A stretch of DNA of 64,000 nt, from the NCBI RefSeq assembly GCF_001713475.1, contig NZ_CP016499.1, positions 868,001 through 932,000 on the forward strand. Direction: 5' to 3'. The position numbers and the translations under genes were made by a program. Position 1 is the first letter of the stretch, and the number at the start of each line of letters is the position of its first letter. Shown here one piece after another: positions 5,473 through 12,077 of the stretch. Below the pieces are notes generated by a model, which saw only the letters and a program-made list of their open reading frames with translations, did no database searches and had not been told where the DNA came from. Origin of the DNA: Agrobacterium sp. RAC06 (GTDB lineage: Bacteria; Pseudomonadota; Alphaproteobacteria; Rhizobiales; Rhizobiaceae).

Positions 5473-5799
5473 ATGAGCATATCAGCGATCATGGGCATCT
5501 CGCTTTCGGGCATGCAGGCGCAGCAAACGCGCCTTGCTGCGACCGCCAACAACGTCGCGAATGCCATGACACCTGGTTACGATCGTCTCGAAACCAGCTT
5601 TACCAGTCGCGCCCAGGGCGGCGTGTCCGCCACGGTTGCCCCGTCCGATGGACCGGTCGCCGATGACACGTCCAATGTCGACCTTGCGTCGGAAATGCTC
5701 TCGCTCGTCGAAACCGAGATCGGCTTCAAGGCGAATGCCGCGGCCTGGGAGACGGGTGCTGACATCTGGGACGTCCTGCTCAGCATCAAGCGCGACTGA
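5473..5799 (+). CDS. Short flagellar basal-body rod-like protein
   Basis: A 108-residue protein with the N-terminal rod signature (GMQAQQTRLAATANNVANAM, then TPGYDR, residues 14-38) and the C-terminal rod/hook signature (VDLASEMLSLVETEIGFKAN, residues 70-89). It therefore has both coiled-coil ends of FlgB/FlgC/FlgF/FlgG-type axial proteins and almost no central domain. FlgC is usually about 135-140 residues. There are no flagellar genes nearby, so its role in a real flagellum is doubtful. It may be a divergent, stand-alone rod paralog. Start ATG 5473, with a GGAAAG site upstream. Confidence 0.8.
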   Translation: MSISAIMGISLSGMQAQQTRLAATANNVANAMTPGYDRLETSFTSRAQGGVSATVAPSDGPVADDTSNVDLASEMLSLVETEIGFKANAAAWETGADIWDVLLSIKRD

Positions 5800-6019: not shown

Positions 6020-6322
6020 ATGTATAACGACTCACTCAACTACCTGAAGACACAGATCCTTTCCGCACAGGTCGGGGACGCCGCCGGCATCCGCGGCCTG
6101 ATCAAACAGCGTCTCGACCAAGCGCTCACATCCGTCCATACGAATGATTATGTCGAGGACTGTCTGTTTCAAATCACCGAGGCGCTCGAACAGCTCGACA
6201 CCGGGTCAACGGACCCGGCGAAGCTTCGCGACTACTTATTGGGCGCGATCGAGGCGTTGCGAGACGAACTCCATCTTTGCGACATCGAGCCGGATGTCCG
6301 CCAGTCCGCTGTCGGTTTCTGA
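6020..6322 (+). CDS. Hypothetical helical protein
   Basis: A 100-residue acidic, predicted all-helical protein without a signal peptide or membrane segment. I do not recognise a family. ATG 6020 has GAGG eight bases upstream, and ATG 6015 lies in another frame. Its last 87 bases overlap, antisense, the 3' end of the small gene behind luxI (6236-6538). If only one of the two is real, the overlap is artefactual, but both have sensible composition and ribosome sites. The convergent position means it cannot share a transcript with luxI. Confidence 0.55.
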   Translation: MYNDSLNYLKTQILSAQVGDAAGIRGLIKQRLDQALTSVHTNDYVEDCLFQITEALEQLDTGSTDPAKLRDYLLGAIEALRDELHLCDIEPDVRQSAVGF

Positions 6323-6538
6323 GGCACTGCGCTTGCGGCCTCCACCGGCGCGGCGGCGATCGAGACCGTCGGCAGCAGCAAGCGACACCATCTCCAGAAG
6401 ATGATCGAGGAAGAGCGCGTCATCGCTGAGCGGGGCTTTCTGCGAAACACCCTTGATGATCTCCCGAAGACTACGAACCTGCTCTTCCACGATCGAGCGA
6501 ACGTAGATTTCAGAGGATGGAAGTTGGCCATCCGGCAT
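6236..6538 (-). CDS. Small protein translationally coupled to LuxI
   Basis: A 100-residue protein starting at ATG 6538, one base after the luxI stop (TGA, C, ATG), with AGGAGA six bases upstream inside luxI. Residues 10-60 look like amphipathic helices rich in Ile, Val, Leu and Glu; residues 61-75 are Arg/Gly-rich. No family is recognised. A small gene coupled to a synthase gene is also found in Rhizobium leguminosarum, where cinI is followed by cinS, an anti-repressor. No sequence similarity to CinS is claimed. The likely role is an accessory or modulator of the LuxR/LuxI circuit (inference). Confidence 0.6.
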   Translation of the reverse strand: MPDGQLPSSEIYVRSIVEEQVRSLREIIKGVSQKAPLSDDALFLDHLLEMVSLAAADGLDRRRAGGGRKRSASETDSGLADIRLDVAKMEFVSQRLDRAQ

Positions 6539-6539
6539 G

Positions 6540-7241
6540 TCATTCTCCTGCAATTCTTGCATATTCTATATGTCCGTGAAGTTCTTCGGCGAAGGCCAGA
6601 CGTTGAAGGGCCGCCGCGGCGAAGGGATTTCCCGGTGCGCGCTCGAGATCGAGGACGCTGCCGGTAATCCCGTAGAGTTCGTGATGCCGCAGCAGCCCTG
6701 CCATGGAGGGTTTGGCCGTGATCGGAACGATCAGCGATCCGTCGAGCATGCTTGGAGCCGCCAGCGGCATCACATCCCAACCGGTCGTCAGAAGCAGGTT
6801 GACGAGCTTGGGATGTGTCTCGACAACCAGCGTGCCGATGCCCGCAACGAGGCAATACTCCATGACCCCGGTCATCAGGATGTTGGAAATCGGGACGCCG
6901 GCGATCGACCTGTCGGACACTTCGGCAATGCACCGGGTCCATTCATAGACACGCGGCCCACGCGGCCAGTCGGCACCGTCCATCAGATGCGGATAGACAT
7001 CCGACAGAAGATGCGGCTTCAGTGTCGGCAGGAGGCGGCTATATCCCACCACATTACCGCCGACGATGAGCGGCAGATGGATGGCCTCGTCACCGTCGAA
7101 CTGGTCGATCTCCCGTTCGTCGCCACGACGGCAGGCTTCCCATCCCAATCGGTCTACGAACTGGCGATGGCGAAACGCCCAGACCTGCTCCATGACGTCG
7201 GCATGGTCACGCGTGTTCCTGCCCAGAATTGTCGCAAGCAT
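6540..7241 (-). CDS. LuxI-family acyl-homoserine lactone synthase
   Basis: LuxI enzymes make an N-acyl-homoserine lactone signal from S-adenosylmethionine and an acyl donor. The 233-residue protein has the invariant set: R24, F28, W34, D46, D49 (in EIDQFDGDEA), R69, E100 and R103 (EWTR). By eye it is closer to the BjaI/RpaI type (for example YPHL after LPTLKP, and an MEYCL helix) than to CinI or SinI. That branch includes enzymes using CoA-linked branched or aryl substrates, so the signal could be non-standard (inference). It lies 72 bases downstream of luxR on the same strand, with a lux-box-like palindrome between them. Confidence 0.92.
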   Translation of the reverse strand: MLATILGRNTRDHADVMEQVWAFRHRQFVDRLGWEACRRGDEREIDQFDGDEAIHLPLIVGGNVVGYSRLLPTLKPHLLSDVYPHLMDGADWPRGPRVYEWTRCIAEVSDRSIAGVPISNILMTGVMEYCLVAGIGTLVVETHPKLVNLLLTTGWDVMPLAAPSMLDGSLIVPITAKPSMAGLLRHHELYGITGSVLDLERAPGNPFAAAALQRLAFAEELHGHIEYARIAGE

Positions 7242-7295
7242 GTAGATCCCCAGAAAATCCAGGGGCCAGATTGCGATAAGCGGACCGAATTCAAT

Positions 7296-7313
7296 ATAGG
7301 CCGTTCTGCCTAT
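7296..7313 (-). promoter_or_regulatory. Lux-box-like inverted repeat before luxI
   Basis: ATAGGC (7296-7301), 6-base spacer, GCCTAT (7308-7313): an 18-bp element with perfect 6-base arms, immediately after the luxR stop codon and 54 bases upstream of the luxI start. Its size and position match lux boxes bound by LuxR-family activators. It could instead be a short RNA hairpin. Confidence 0.5.
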
Positions 7314-8054
7314 TTATCGGATTATTCCAAGCCGAATCGATTCGGCAATCAGTTGCGCACGGTTCACGGAATTCAACTTACGGCACGCCGCCGCGATTTC
7401 GTGCTGAACTGTTTTCTCCGATATTCCAAGAATTTGGCCAATCTCCCAATTGGTCTTGCCGGCCGAGCACCAGAGAATAACCTCGCGTTCGCGCGGCGTG
7501 ACCTTGGCCGCAACTGCCGCGCTGCGCTCGCTGCTGTCGACGAGGAAGGCACGCAACCGGTTGTGCGCGTAGATTGAAACGATGTGCAGCGCACCGCGCT
7601 GCTCGCTGGACAGCTCGACCTTGCGCGCACCGAAGGTGACGATCGCCTGAAAGCCGCCGACAGAATGGAGCGGCACACTGTAACCATCCAGCATTCCGAA
7701 CTCGGTGGCCTCGTTCATGACGCGCTTGGCGGAGCGACTGAGCGGCTTGTCGGCCAGCGCTTCCGACCAGACGAATGCCTCGTTCGACATCTTCGTCCGG
7801 TAGATCACCGGATCGACATGCACATAGTTTTCCTGGACATAGCGCTCGAACCAGCCCTCCGGCCAGGCATTCAGCATGAAATAGGGATCGATCCGCTCGC
7901 CGGGGAGCGGGATGCCGGACACCGCATAGCAGTCCATGCCGAAGGCACCCGCCACCTTGCCAAGGCAGGCTAGGACTTCCTCATTGTCGCGGGCTCGCGA
8001 CGATTCGGTGATAAAATCGAACATCGCATTGGCTGTCGCCTGCCTGTCTGACAT
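7314..8054 (-). CDS. LuxR-family quorum-sensing regulator
   Basis: A signal-dependent transcription factor of 246 residues. The N-terminal autoinducer-binding domain keeps all conserved positions at a constant offset of 11 from TraR: W68, Y72, D81, P82, W96 and G124. The C-terminal LuxR helix-turn-helix (about residues 184-245) has E189 in TPREREV and G199, with I193 replacing the usual Leu. I chose ATG 8054, with GAGGG upstream, over an in-frame TTG at 8066. It is directly upstream of luxI, so it probably responds to that enzyme's product and activates luxI through the palindrome at 7296. Confidence 0.93.
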   Translation of the reverse strand: MSDRQATANAMFDFITESSRARDNEEVLACLGKVAGAFGMDCYAVSGIPLPGERIDPYFMLNAWPEGWFERYVQENYVHVDPVIYRTKMSNEAFVWSEALADKPLSRSAKRVMNEATEFGMLDGYSVPLHSVGGFQAIVTFGARKVELSSEQRGALHIVSIYAHNRLRAFLVDSSERSAAVAAKVTPREREVILWCSAGKTNWEIGQILGISEKTVQHEIAAACRKLNSVNRAQLIAESIRLGIIR

Positions 8055-8078
8055 CCGCACCCTCAAGATAGCCAGTCA

Positions 8079-8211: not shown

Positions 8212-8835
8212 TCAGATGGCGTTCAATGCGGCATGCAGCAGCGCGATGATACCGAAGGCGATCAGAATGAACGCAGAGACCCGGCTGACCAGGGTTGCAA
8301 ATCCCTCGGGGAGCCGCGTGCGCACCACGGTCACGGCACCGCTCAGGAAGAACCACCAGGCAAGCGAGCCGAAGAAGACACCTGCCACCAGTAGCACGCC
8401 TTCCCAACCGCCCTCGCCCGCCGCGAGCCCCAGTCCGGCAAAAATCGCTGCGAAGGTAAGGATCGTCGCGGGATTGGCGATGGTGAGCAGGAAGGTCGCG
8501 GCAATTGTCGACAGCAGGCTGTGGGCCTGGACAGAAGCTGCGGAGACCTCTGGGCGCGGCTTGAGCGCCGCCACGCCAAGATAGAGCAGGAACAAGCCGC
8601 CTGCGACCTGCAAGGGAAACACGATCCAGTCGAGATAGGATCCGAGCGCGTTAAAGCCGGCTGCAGCCATGGCGGCATAGACGCCATCGGCAATCGCGGT
8701 GCCCAGCCCTCCGGCAACGCCGGCCCAGAAGCCACGCTCCAGCGTACGATTGATGCAGAGCGCCCCTATCGGTCCGAGTGGTGCCGCGATCGCGACGCCC
8801 AGCACGAGCCCTTTCCCGAAAAGGAGCGCGTCCAT
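8212..8835 (-). CDS. LysE/RhtB-family amino acid exporter
   Basis: A 207-residue inner-membrane protein with about six hydrophobic segments and the family signature near the N-terminus (APLGPIGALCINRTLERG, about residues 18-35). LysE/RhtB proteins export amino acids such as lysine, homoserine, threonine or leucine; the substrate here cannot be read from the sequence. Its ATG begins one base after the stop of the upstream lrp-type gene, so the two form an operon in which the regulator probably senses the exported amino acid (inference). Confidence 0.9.
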   Translation of the reverse strand: MDALLFGKGLVLGVAIAAPLGPIGALCINRTLERGFWAGVAGGLGTAIADGVYAAMAAAGFNALGSYLDWIVFPLQVAGGLFLLYLGVAALKPRPEVSAASVQAHSLLSTIAATFLLTIANPATILTFAAIFAGLGLAAGEGGWEGVLLVAGVFFGSLAWWFFLSGAVTVVRTRLPEGFATLVSRVSAFILIAFGIIALLHAALNAI

Positions 8836-8836
8836 G

Positions 8837-9286
8837 TCACTCCGTGCCGATCACATAGCTGCGTTCACTCGCCGTCGACAGCGCGATCATCGTCTCGCTG
8901 CGCGCAATCAGGCGCTCGCCCTTCAAGTCGGCGAGGAATGTCTCGATGCCCGTGAGGTCGGCCGTCCGGATCTTCAGCATATAGGACCAGCTACCGGTCA
9001 CATGATGACATTCGAGCACGGCCGGGTGGGATTCTGCATAATCGCGAAAGGCAGCCTGTTCGGTGTCCTGCGGCAGGGTCACCAGCATGAAGGCGGTGAT
9101 CGGCAGGCCCAGCGCCGCAGGATCCACCTCCAGGGTGAAGCGTCTGATGGCTCCCGACGCGACCAAGCGACGGATGCGTTCATTGACGGCGGAGGGCGAA
9201 AGCCCTACCACATCCCCGATGCTGGCGAGCGAACGGCGGGCATCCTCGGCCAAGAGATCGATAATTTTACGGTCACTGATATCCAT
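8837..9286 (-). CDS. Lrp/AsnC-family transcriptional regulator
   Basis: A 149-residue protein. Residues 1-60 form the AsnC-type helix-turn-helix (starting MDISDRKIIDLLAEDARRS); residues about 65-140 form the RAM ligand-binding domain (ITAFMLVTLPQ..., HHVTGSWSYMLKIRTADL). These regulators bind an amino acid and control transport or metabolism. It is transcribed ahead of, and in the same direction as, the LysE exporter, unlike the more common divergent layout. The upstream DNA (9296-9360) is AT-rich with a CGATATATCG palindrome at 9310-9319, plausible for Lrp autoregulation. Confidence 0.93.
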   Translation of the reverse strand: MDISDRKIIDLLAEDARRSLASIGDVVGLSPSAVNERIRRLVASGAIRRFTLEVDPAALGLPITAFMLVTLPQDTEQAAFRDYAESHPAVLECHHVTGSWSYMLKIRTADLTGIETFLADLKGERLIARSETMIALSTASERSYVIGTE

Positions 9287-9795: not shown

Positions 9796-10102
9796 CGGCA
9801 CAGTCTCCATCAACAACCGGGTTCAAGGTCCGGCGTTTCTTCTGGCAATGTAAGGGAGGCGCCTCGTCGGTTCAATAGCTTAGGCTGCCAAGTGTGCCGC
9901 AGGCAGCGCATTGCGAACATGCCCGTCGCCTGATGATGATCAATCCTTGAGCACGACTGGATCACCCGAAAAACTTGATCTTTATCAGAAGCTTGAAACG
10001 CGCTCTTGCATGACGCTCCCCTCGTCCGCGATCAAAAATATTGCAGTGCACAGCGGGAACGGATGCAAACTCGGGCAAAAGCTCCCGAAATCGATGGAAA
10101 TT

Positions 10103-10118
10103 TTGACCATCCGGTAAA
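10103..10118 (+). promoter_or_regulatory. RutR-like operator
   Basis: TTGACCATCCGGTAAA matches the RutR palindrome TTGACCA-NN-TGGTCAA, as I remember it from E. coli, at 12 of 14 fixed positions. It lies about 125 bases before rutA. No rutR gene is in the window, so a TetR-type regulator elsewhere would have to act on it. Confidence 0.5.
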
Positions 10119-10169
10119 ATATTTCTCCAGTCAGCACCTAAGAAACTGTTCTTATTGTTTTTTTCGGAC

Positions 10170-10185
10170 TGGCATAGCGATTGCT
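10170..10185 (+). promoter_or_regulatory. Sigma-54-type promoter of the rut operon
   Basis: TGGCAT-N5-TTGCT matches the -24/-12 consensus TGGCAC-N5-TTGCA at 9 of 11 positions with exact spacing, 58 bases before the rutA start. The E. coli rut operon is also transcribed by sigma-54 under NtrC, so nitrogen control is likely. A T-rich stretch at about 10150-10164 could serve for DNA bending. Confidence 0.6.
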
Positions 10186-10242
10186 TCGTTCTCTGCGAAA
10201 CAAAAAAGGCGCCCGGCGCGCCTCCAGAAGCGGAGAACAGAT

Positions 10243-11334
10243 ATGGAAATCGGCGTCTTTATCCCGATCGGCAACAATGGCTGGCTATTGTCGGAGAATG
10301 CCCCCCAATACAAGCCAAGCTTCGAACTCAACAAGGCGATCACGCTCAAGGCCGAATCTTACGGCTTCGACTTTGCGCTTTCGATGATCAAGCTGCGTGG
10401 TTTCGGCGGCAAGACAGAATTCTGGGACTATAACCTGGAAAGCTTCACGCTGATGGCAGGCCTCGCCGCCGTCACCTCGAAGATCAAGCTTTTCGGGACG
10501 GCCGCGACCCTGATCATGCCGCCGGCGATCGTCGCACGCATGGCCACCACGATCGATTCGATTTCCAATGGCCGCTTCGGCGTCAACCTGGTCACCGGCT
10601 GGCAGCGTCCGGAATACAGCCAGATGGGATTGTGGCCAGGCGACGACTACTTCTCCGACCGCTACGAATATCTGACCGAATACACGACCGTGCTGAAAGA
10701 CCTTCTGACCACCGGTCAGTCTGACCTCAAGGGCAAACACTTCCAGATGGATGATTGCCGCATGAAGCCGATTCCCGAAGGCGATGTGAAGCTGATCTGC
10801 GCCGGATCCTCCAACTCTGGCATGGCCTTCTCGGCTCAGTTCGCGGACTATTCGTTCTGCTTCGGCGTCGGCGTCAACACGCCCAAGGCTTTCGCGCCGA
10901 CCAACGAACGGCTGCTGGCCGCCACCGAAAAGACCGGCCGTGACGTACGCTCCTTCGTGCTGACCATGGTTCTGGCCGAGGAAACCACCGAGGAAGCCTT
11001 TGCCAAGTGGGAACACTACAAGGCAGGCGCCGACGAGGAAGCGATCAAGTGGCTTGGCCTGCAAAGTGCCGTCGACACGAAATCCGGTTCCGACACCAAT
11101 GTCCGCCACATGGCGAACCCGGTGTCTGCTGTTAACATCAACATGGGCACGCTGATCGGCTCCTATGCCGAAGTCGCCGCCATGCTCGACGAGATGAGCG
11201 AAGTGCCGGGCACCGGTGGCGTGATGTTGACCTTCGACGACTTCCTCGAAGGCATCGAAAAGTTTGGCAAGTTCGTCCAGCCGCTGATGAAGAGCCGCGC
11301 GCATGTCAACCAGATGTTGGAGGCCGCCGAATGA
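10243..11334 (+). CDS. rutA: Pyrimidine monooxygenase RutA
   Basis: A flavin-dependent luciferase-like monooxygenase that opens the uracil (or thymine) ring to ureidoacrylate-type products, using FMNH2 supplied by RutF. It is 363 residues, starting [20 protein letters not shown], with [20 protein letters not shown] in the middle and a conserved C-terminal ([15 protein letters not shown]). GGAGAA lies upstream of ATG 10243. Its stop overlaps the rutB start (ATGA). It is first in rutABCDF, behind a sigma-54-type promoter. Confidence 0.96.
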
Positions 11335-12077
11335 GCGAGGCCGTTGTTGCAGGCTATCAGCCACGCCCGGAACTGACCAAAAGCGTCACGCTTCCGGCCC
11401 GCCCCGAACCGATCACGCTGAAGCCGTCGGAAACGGCAGTCGTCGTGGTCGACATGCAGAATGCCTATTCGACCGAAGGCGGCTATGTCGATCTCGCCGG
11501 CTTCGACATTTCCGGCGCCAAGGGCACGATCTCCAACATCAAGAAAACGCTTGATGCAGCCCGCGAAGCCGGTGTGCTGGTCGTCTATTTCCAGAACGGC
11601 TGGGATCCTGATTATGTCGAGGCTGGCGGCCCCGGATCGCCCAACTGGCACAAGTCGAATGCGCTGAAAACCATGCGCAAGCGGCCCGAACTGCAGGGGC
11701 AACTGCTTGCCAAGGGCACCTGGGATTATGCGATCGTCGACGAATTGCAGCCTAAGCCGGGCGACATTCTGGTGCCGAAGAGCCGCTATTCCGGCTTCTT
11801 CAACACCAACATGGACTCGGTTCTGCGGGCCCGCGGTATCCGCAACCTGGTCTTTGTGGGCATTGCCACCAATGTCTGCGTCGAAAGCTCGCTTCGCGAT
11901 GCCTTCCACCTCGAATATTTCGGCGTGATGCTCGAGGACGCGACCCATCACCTCGGCCCCGACTTCATCCAGCAGGCGACCGTCTACAATGTCGAAAAGT
12001 TCTTCGGCTGGGTCGCGACCGTCAACGACTTCTGCGGTGCGATCGGACAGGCAGCGCCTGCCGATGCAGCCGAGTGA
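11331..12077 (+). CDS. rutB: Ureidoacrylate amidohydrolase RutB
   Basis: An isochorismatase-family enzyme that hydrolyses ureidoacrylate peracid, releasing carbamate and aminoacrylate peracid. It is 248 residues with the catalytic triad D41 (VVVVDMQN), K150 (VPKSRYSGF) and C183 (TNVCVES), all at a constant offset of 17 from the E. coli residues D24, K133 and C166 as I recall them. ATG 11331 overlaps the rutA stop by four bases, so translation is coupled. Confidence 0.96.

Follow-up and report, generated by a model that had tools for sequence, protein, structure and literature searches.

A conserved small gene coupled to a probable acyl-CoA-type luxI in Agrobacterium sp. RAC06 and its probable distant kinship with cinS

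PraR-binding small proteins encoded behind a signal synthase gene are already a known kind, with CinS of Rhizobium leguminosarum and MmaP of Methylobacterium as the described examples. The MmaI signal is 3R-OH-5Z-C12:1-HSL. CinS binds PraR and displaces it (PMC4149787, PMC10790750, PMC5977203), and MmaP, a protein of 59 aa whose gene is co-transcribed with mmaI, is also reported to bind PraR (PMC10790750). The Mesorhizobium R1-I1-crotonase circuit likewise links three genes and uses a CoA-type synthase, but its third gene belongs to an enzyme family and is needed for the signal (PMC10470506). In Burkholderia the regulator gene BCAM1871 lies behind cepI and is co-transcribed with it (PMC3356288), a case set beside the present one by its description only. 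CinS is absent from the main text of a 2026 survey of Rhizobium quorum sensing (PMC13133039), and among titles and abstract openings, with few subscription papers included, we found no published description of the small gene analysed here or of a CinS-like gene behind bjaI.

Here we analyse a 64,000-nucleotide stretch of the Agrobacterium sp. RAC06 genome (the window, to which all coordinates refer), in which a luxR–luxI pair is followed by a small gene, designated A, that overlaps a convergent small gene, designated B. The first-pass annotation had put the locus forward as its best candidate for an undescribed system, which is too strong a description given CinS and MmaP. What is new here is the combination, in what would be a synthase-plus-antirepressor circuit, of a LuxI that is probably CoA-type with a distinct A protein and a convergent gene inherited along with them.

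Layout of the locus

The locus is composed of the following features.

7314..8054, minus strand: luxR-type regulator gene with Autoind_bind and GerE domains, ATG start at 8054
7296..7313, no strand assigned: lux-box-like palindrome ATAGGC-N6-GCCTAT between luxR and luxI
6540..7241, minus strand: luxI-type acyl-HSL synthase gene, 233 aa, Autoind_synth domain, on the acyl-CoA side of the LuxI tree and without the ACP-docking charges
6236..6538, minus strand: small gene A, 100 aa, residues 1–69 conserved and residues 70–100 a weakly constrained tail overlapping gene B
6020..6322, plus strand: small gene B, 100 aa, running towards A and sharing sequence with the 3' end of A

LuxR and LuxI are both complete and carry their invariant residues, as had been claimed before. 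Matches to Pfam Autoind_bind (1.2e-31) and GerE (3.7e-15) in LuxR and to Autoind_synth (1.4e-18) in LuxI lie above the curated cut-offs, and the canonical positions are present in both proteins: nine in LuxR (TraR W57, Y61, D70, P71, W85, G113, E178, L182 and G188) and R24, F28, W34, D46, D49, R69, E100 and R103 in LuxI (window numbering). An in-frame TTG at 8066, upstream of the ATG, is a possible alternative start for luxR. The ATG of gene A is positioned one base past the luxI TGA, and an AGGAG ends six bases ahead of it, in agreement with the earlier reading of a 100-codon gene directly behind luxI with its own ribosome site. To that reading we add the lux box, gene B on the opposite strand and the tail of A that overlaps it.

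Directly upstream of luxR and on the same strand are genes for a LysE-family exporter (8212-8835, minus strand) and an Lrp/AsnC regulator (8837-9286, minus strand); the LysE/RhtB proteins include some exporters of homoserine lactones. At 5473-5799 (plus strand) there is a gene for a 108-aa protein carrying a flagellar basal-body rod domain, and a pyrimidine utilisation (rut) operon begins at 10054-12077 (plus strand), with RutA and RutB above the NCBIfam cut-off. The genome carries three luxI genes in total. The second (L002) is followed by what we read as a trbB-like sequence, and no ORF of our set starts within 260 bases behind the third (L001).

The LuxI synthase and its relatives

A tree of 75 rows, chosen from a larger LuxI set and built by a quick search with several long branches, places the window LuxI on the same side of one bipartition (SH-aLRT 99) as BjaI, RpaI and the LuxI of P. 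hirschii, with LasI, TofI, CinI and the TraI-type rows, the TraI labels being our own assignment, on the opposite side. The enzyme is thus not grouped with the acyl-ACP synthases, and the kinship with BjaI and RpaI that the first-pass annotation had seen extends to the side of the tree. Within that side the window LuxI belongs to another, well supported subclade than BjaI and RpaI, to which it is only 33% and 35% identical, respectively. It is 97% identical both to a protein filed under Rhizobium rosettiformans and to the LuxI of Rhizobium sp. RU33A, 79% identical to the LuxI of R. rosettiformans W3, 56% to that of Agrobacterium vitis, which we take to be AvsI, 51% to the pRL10 LuxI of R. johnstonii 3841 (L118), and 38–40% to the LuxI proteins of eight Methylobacterium loci.

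The ACP-docking positions divide the tree in the same way. Lysine or arginine is found at LasI positions 150, 154 and 161 in 16, 15 and 13 of the 16 ACP-side rows (1.0, 0.94 and 0.81), compared with fractions of 0.03, 0.12 and 0.03 in the 59 other rows. In the window LuxI the residues aligned with LasI K150, R154 and R161 are N, T and P, leaving it without the three basic docking residues; BjaI also lacks the docking charges at these positions, whereas CinI has arginine at two of the three. Loss of these charges has been linked to CoA use in the BjaI clade (PMC4234381). On the basis of its branch and its docking positions, the window LuxI is probably an acyl-CoA-type synthase.

The CoA side of the tree is not restricted to enzymes with unusual products. 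The pRL10 LuxI, which we take to be RhiI from its location, falls on this side and has few of the basic residues for ACP docking; also on this side are the Methylobacterium rows, which we take for MmaI, with its 3R-hydroxy product, from the small ORF behind each gene. The products of RhiI are plain C6–C8 signals (PMC5977203). An unusual signal, which had been suggested earlier from the BjaI/RpaI-like branch, therefore does not follow from the position of the enzyme, and it is no more than possible that the acyl group is branched or aryl.

Genes A and B

Gene A is a real gene. An orthologous luxI, defined by at least 65% identity, was found in 18 of 63 genomes of the genus, and gene A is present in all 18 of these and in none of the 45 others, five of which have a more distant luxI (32–59%) and no A match at E 0.001. 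The gap between the luxI and A matches is exactly four bases, the stop codon plus one, in 17 of the 18 genomes, the luxI match being partial in the remaining one (G885). Likewise, the start of A lies at the same +1 offset in 14 of 15 related loci and at −11 in L047. A search of 394 genomes of the family with the A1 profile returned the own genome only; the same-genus members of that set were this genome and five without an orthologous luxI, and the genus search replaced it. Residues 1–69 show a pN/pS of 0.20 across 16 sequences (the window and the 15 related loci) and of 0.14 in the 13 long forms, and these ratios, together with the distribution of 18 of 18 against 0 of 45, make gene A more than a chance ORF.

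The tail of A behaves differently, with a pN/pS of 0.78 where it overlaps B. Three related loci (L045, L046 and L075) have a 69-aa gene A that stops before B, and in three of the 18 genomes (G857, G867 and G879) A is also short, the profile match spanning stop codons. The proposal that the whole 100 residues form one gene is accordingly upheld for the strongly conserved residues 1–69, while the remainder is weakly constrained and is preceded by a stop in three genomes.

Protein A is predicted by AlphaFold2 to form a helical hairpin (residues 8–34 and 39–57) followed by a low-confidence tail (mean pLDDT 68.7). Neither A nor B has a convincing family in Pfam, NCBIfam or PHROGs; the sole Pfam match among the 31 members of A1, to Lambda_Bor, is due to chance, and PDB sequence and fold searches with A gave nothing significant (best Foldseek match at E 1.4). 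A small protein that is predicted to be helical, is coupled to luxI and is about the size of TraM could act on the LuxR of its own operon, antagonising or modulating it as a TraM-like antiactivator that gives negative feedback, and would then not be a partner of PraR. TraM has a Pfam family of its own, and the window protein matches no Pfam family at E ≤ 1 and hence is not a member of it. The sequence trail, such as it exists, points to CinS (see below) rather than to a TraM-like role, and we regard such an antiactivator as rather unlikely.

The coupling of A to luxI in 18 of 18 genomes could also be expected of an accessory factor of signal making, for example one that channels substrate to a CoA-type LuxI, and a three-gene circuit of this sort is known from Mesorhizobium, where the CoA-type I1 is accompanied by a crotonase-family gene (PMC10470506). 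Protein A has no enzyme domain and is predicted to be a two-helix structure, and CinS, its presumed relative, sits behind a synthase from the ACP side of the tree; all three points speak against an accessory role, which we consider improbable.

Gene B shares the distribution of luxI and A exactly, occurring in those 18 of the 63 genomes, and a database search returned 44 B proteins. Counted from the luxI stop, B ends at +206 to +221 both in the window and in all 15 related loci, and the long A forms overlap it by about 87 bases, with the last ~30 residues of A overprinting B. In contrast to the high ratio in the A frame, the pN/pS of the overlap is 0.30 in the B frame, and the same part of B has a ratio of 0.54 in the three short-A loci. 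Silent change is lowered in the overlap in both frames (0.24 and 0.34), so the two constraints are not fully separable; the overlap looks like one in which B is the constrained reading and the tail of A a by-product. The two genes were also considered as paralogues, a relation not supported by their profile scores of at most 4.6 bits either way.

We place B in the circuit by inference only. A and B could form a jointly acting pair in a four-gene circuit, B modulating A through protein contact or antisense transcripts, and their common distribution and the steady position of the B stop are in keeping with this, as is the more distant locus L056, where the best B-profile match outside the 15 loci, at no better than E 0.25–0.32, is an ORF on the opposite strand that ends at +206. 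The shared pattern would be given equally by vertical inheritance of one locus, however, and conservation is lower in B, whose residues 1–71 have a pN/pS of 0.50, than in A, which leaves a joint action of the pair unlikely in our estimate.

Kinship with CinS and the proposed circuit

The first-pass annotation had asked whether homologues of the small protein accompany luxI elsewhere, and the genus search and an iterated HMM both found relatives in that position. The HMM was started from 31 A sequences and run with an inclusion E of 0.05 on 5574 ORFs from 115 of 139 luxI loci; L001–L004, L100 and L123 were set aside, as were loci that had no luxI ORF in our set or whose LuxI was the same as that of another locus. 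Beyond the 15 close loci the iterated profile reached 10 more, in every case through an ORF behind luxI on its strand: those of A. vitis (L058), R. rhizogenes (L061), Shinella (L057), Hoeflea (L060), Sinorhizobium (L048 and L052) and R. leucaenae (L055), together with L056, L089 and L011. The R. leucaenae ORF starts at +341 nt, beyond the 320-nt limit used for 'downstream'. Besides these luxI-linked ORFs none of the 5574 matched the iterated profile at E ≤ 0.05, and many other luxI loci, including that of pRL10, have no A-family match. Before iteration, only L055 and L056 were significant beyond the close loci.

The A. vitis locus shares with the window an A-family ORF behind luxI as well as the palindrome ATAGGC-N6-GCCTAT, but its ORF is shorter (61 aa). 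If G907, one of the five genus genomes with a more distant luxI, is the A. vitis genome, as its coordinates suggest, the A1 profile did not pick up this ORF in the genus search. Four Jiella loci (L072, L077, L079 and L081) have a different ORF of 103–105 aa closely behind luxI, which is absent among A-profile matches at E ≤ 20.

CinS of strain 3841 is a 67-aa ORF overlapping the end of the chromosomal luxI (L113), which we take to be cinI. As in the window, the small gene is coupled to luxI, but CinS is smaller (63–67 aa in 14 distinct sequences, compared with 100 aa for A) and has no direct sequence match to A. Four A profiles were tried. The starting profile scores CinS at the level of noise (1084 of 3567 ORFs as high), and the later three give 3.6, 7.9 and 6.7 bits; the 7.9 bits of the third profile are reached by one of 3567 ORFs and by two of 2000 CinS shuffles. 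In the reverse direction, the CinS profile ranks ten A-family proteins, that of the window included, above the 3567 ORFs (MWU p 3e-7; L052 dropped as a near copy of L048), but the window protein by itself is not matched (−0.7 bits, a score that 330 of the 3567 reach). Taken together, these profile scores suggest that A is probably a distant homologue of CinS, through a link that is indirect and weak but above controls.

The relation to MmaP is less direct. MmaP resembles A in being small and a predicted hairpin (AlphaFold2 helices 4–23 and 26–47, pLDDT 86.2, for 55 residues from an inner Met), and its synthase lies on the same side of the LuxI tree, but it scores with the CinS profile and hardly with A profiles. 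With the iterated A profiles it is mostly noise (427 of 3567 ORFs as high for L091 and 100 of 3567 for L021 with the third), one MmaP (L021) reaching 4.9 bits with the second profile, a score equalled by two of 3567 ORFs. The MmaP profile in turn matches the A family weakly (p 0.016) and gives the window protein −0.2 bits, with 300 of 3567 ORFs as high. Between CinS and MmaP themselves, the profile scores exceed those of the controls. As to the hairpins predicted for A and MmaP, two-helix proteins readily come to resemble one another.

Among other downstream ORFs, the top matches of the CinS profile are MmaP-like ORFs and those that follow bjaI-like genes. For five such genes (L124–L128, three placed with BjaI in the tree and two alike by start) the small ORFs score 2.8 to 8.7 bits, and by these scores they are possibly a CinS-like partner of BjaI.

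The lux-box palindrome ATAGGC-N6-GCCTAT is perfect in 14 of the 15 related loci, with one change in L045, and is also perfect in the A. vitis, R. rhizogenes and Shinella loci. A variant of it is seen in L056, different palindromes are present in L048 and the pRL10 locus, and none was found in the stretch examined for L055 and L060. In the genome the perfect palindrome is a single copy. The bare palindrome with two mismatches gives 235 matches compared with 144 in the control, and a fuller consensus with up to three mismatches gives 14+13, near the control of 16+9. A single perfect site and a consensus near control fit an output that passes through A, and there may be weaker LuxR sites elsewhere in the genome. 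One two-mismatch site before an ArsR-type ORF (L169), considered as a LuxR target, was taken as chance.

An XRE-family protein encoded before metK and a trmB-like ORF was found by family in this genome, and we read it as PraR and the neighbouring ORF as trmB. The same gene order is given for praR in PMC10790750. Its closest counterpart in R. johnstonii 3841 shares 91% identity with it, a further likeness to the CinR-CinI-CinS system with PraR. Matches to PraR were found in six of six other genomes tried, several with paralogues, and its presence is therefore weak evidence.

We favour, with moderate confidence, a quorum-sensing circuit of the cinRIS/mmaRIP type. LuxR with its signal would bind the lux box at 7296-7313 and drive luxI and A as a co-transcribed operon, the signal being made by LuxI, probably from an acyl-CoA. 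Protein A, a predicted helical hairpin, would bind the XRE-family regulator PraR as CinS and MmaP do and relieve its control of target genes, and cell density would be relayed through A instead of through many LuxR sites.

A broader reading is more speculative, and we hold it only tentatively. The LuxI-linked hairpin proteins (CinS, MmaP, the A family and the bjaI-linked ORFs) may belong to a single class of PraR-type antagonists, old and quick to diverge, whose members accompany ACP-type as well as CoA-type synthases. A signal synthase with an antirepressor would then be a general arrangement of quorum sensing in alphaproteobacteria; in the present genus A would have gained a tail by extending into a fourth gene, convergent and inherited with it, by which it is modulated. 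The overlapping tail of A looks like a natural extension of a protein into an antisense gene. For bjaI/bjaR1, the regulated phenotypes are given as unknown (PMC5977203, Table 1). If the broader reading is true, the small unannotated genes behind bjaI and its relatives would gain a testable function, and quorum sensing in many alphaproteobacteria would act less by LuxR binding to many promoters than through a single autoinduced operon, from which a small protein is released to antagonise a conserved regulator.
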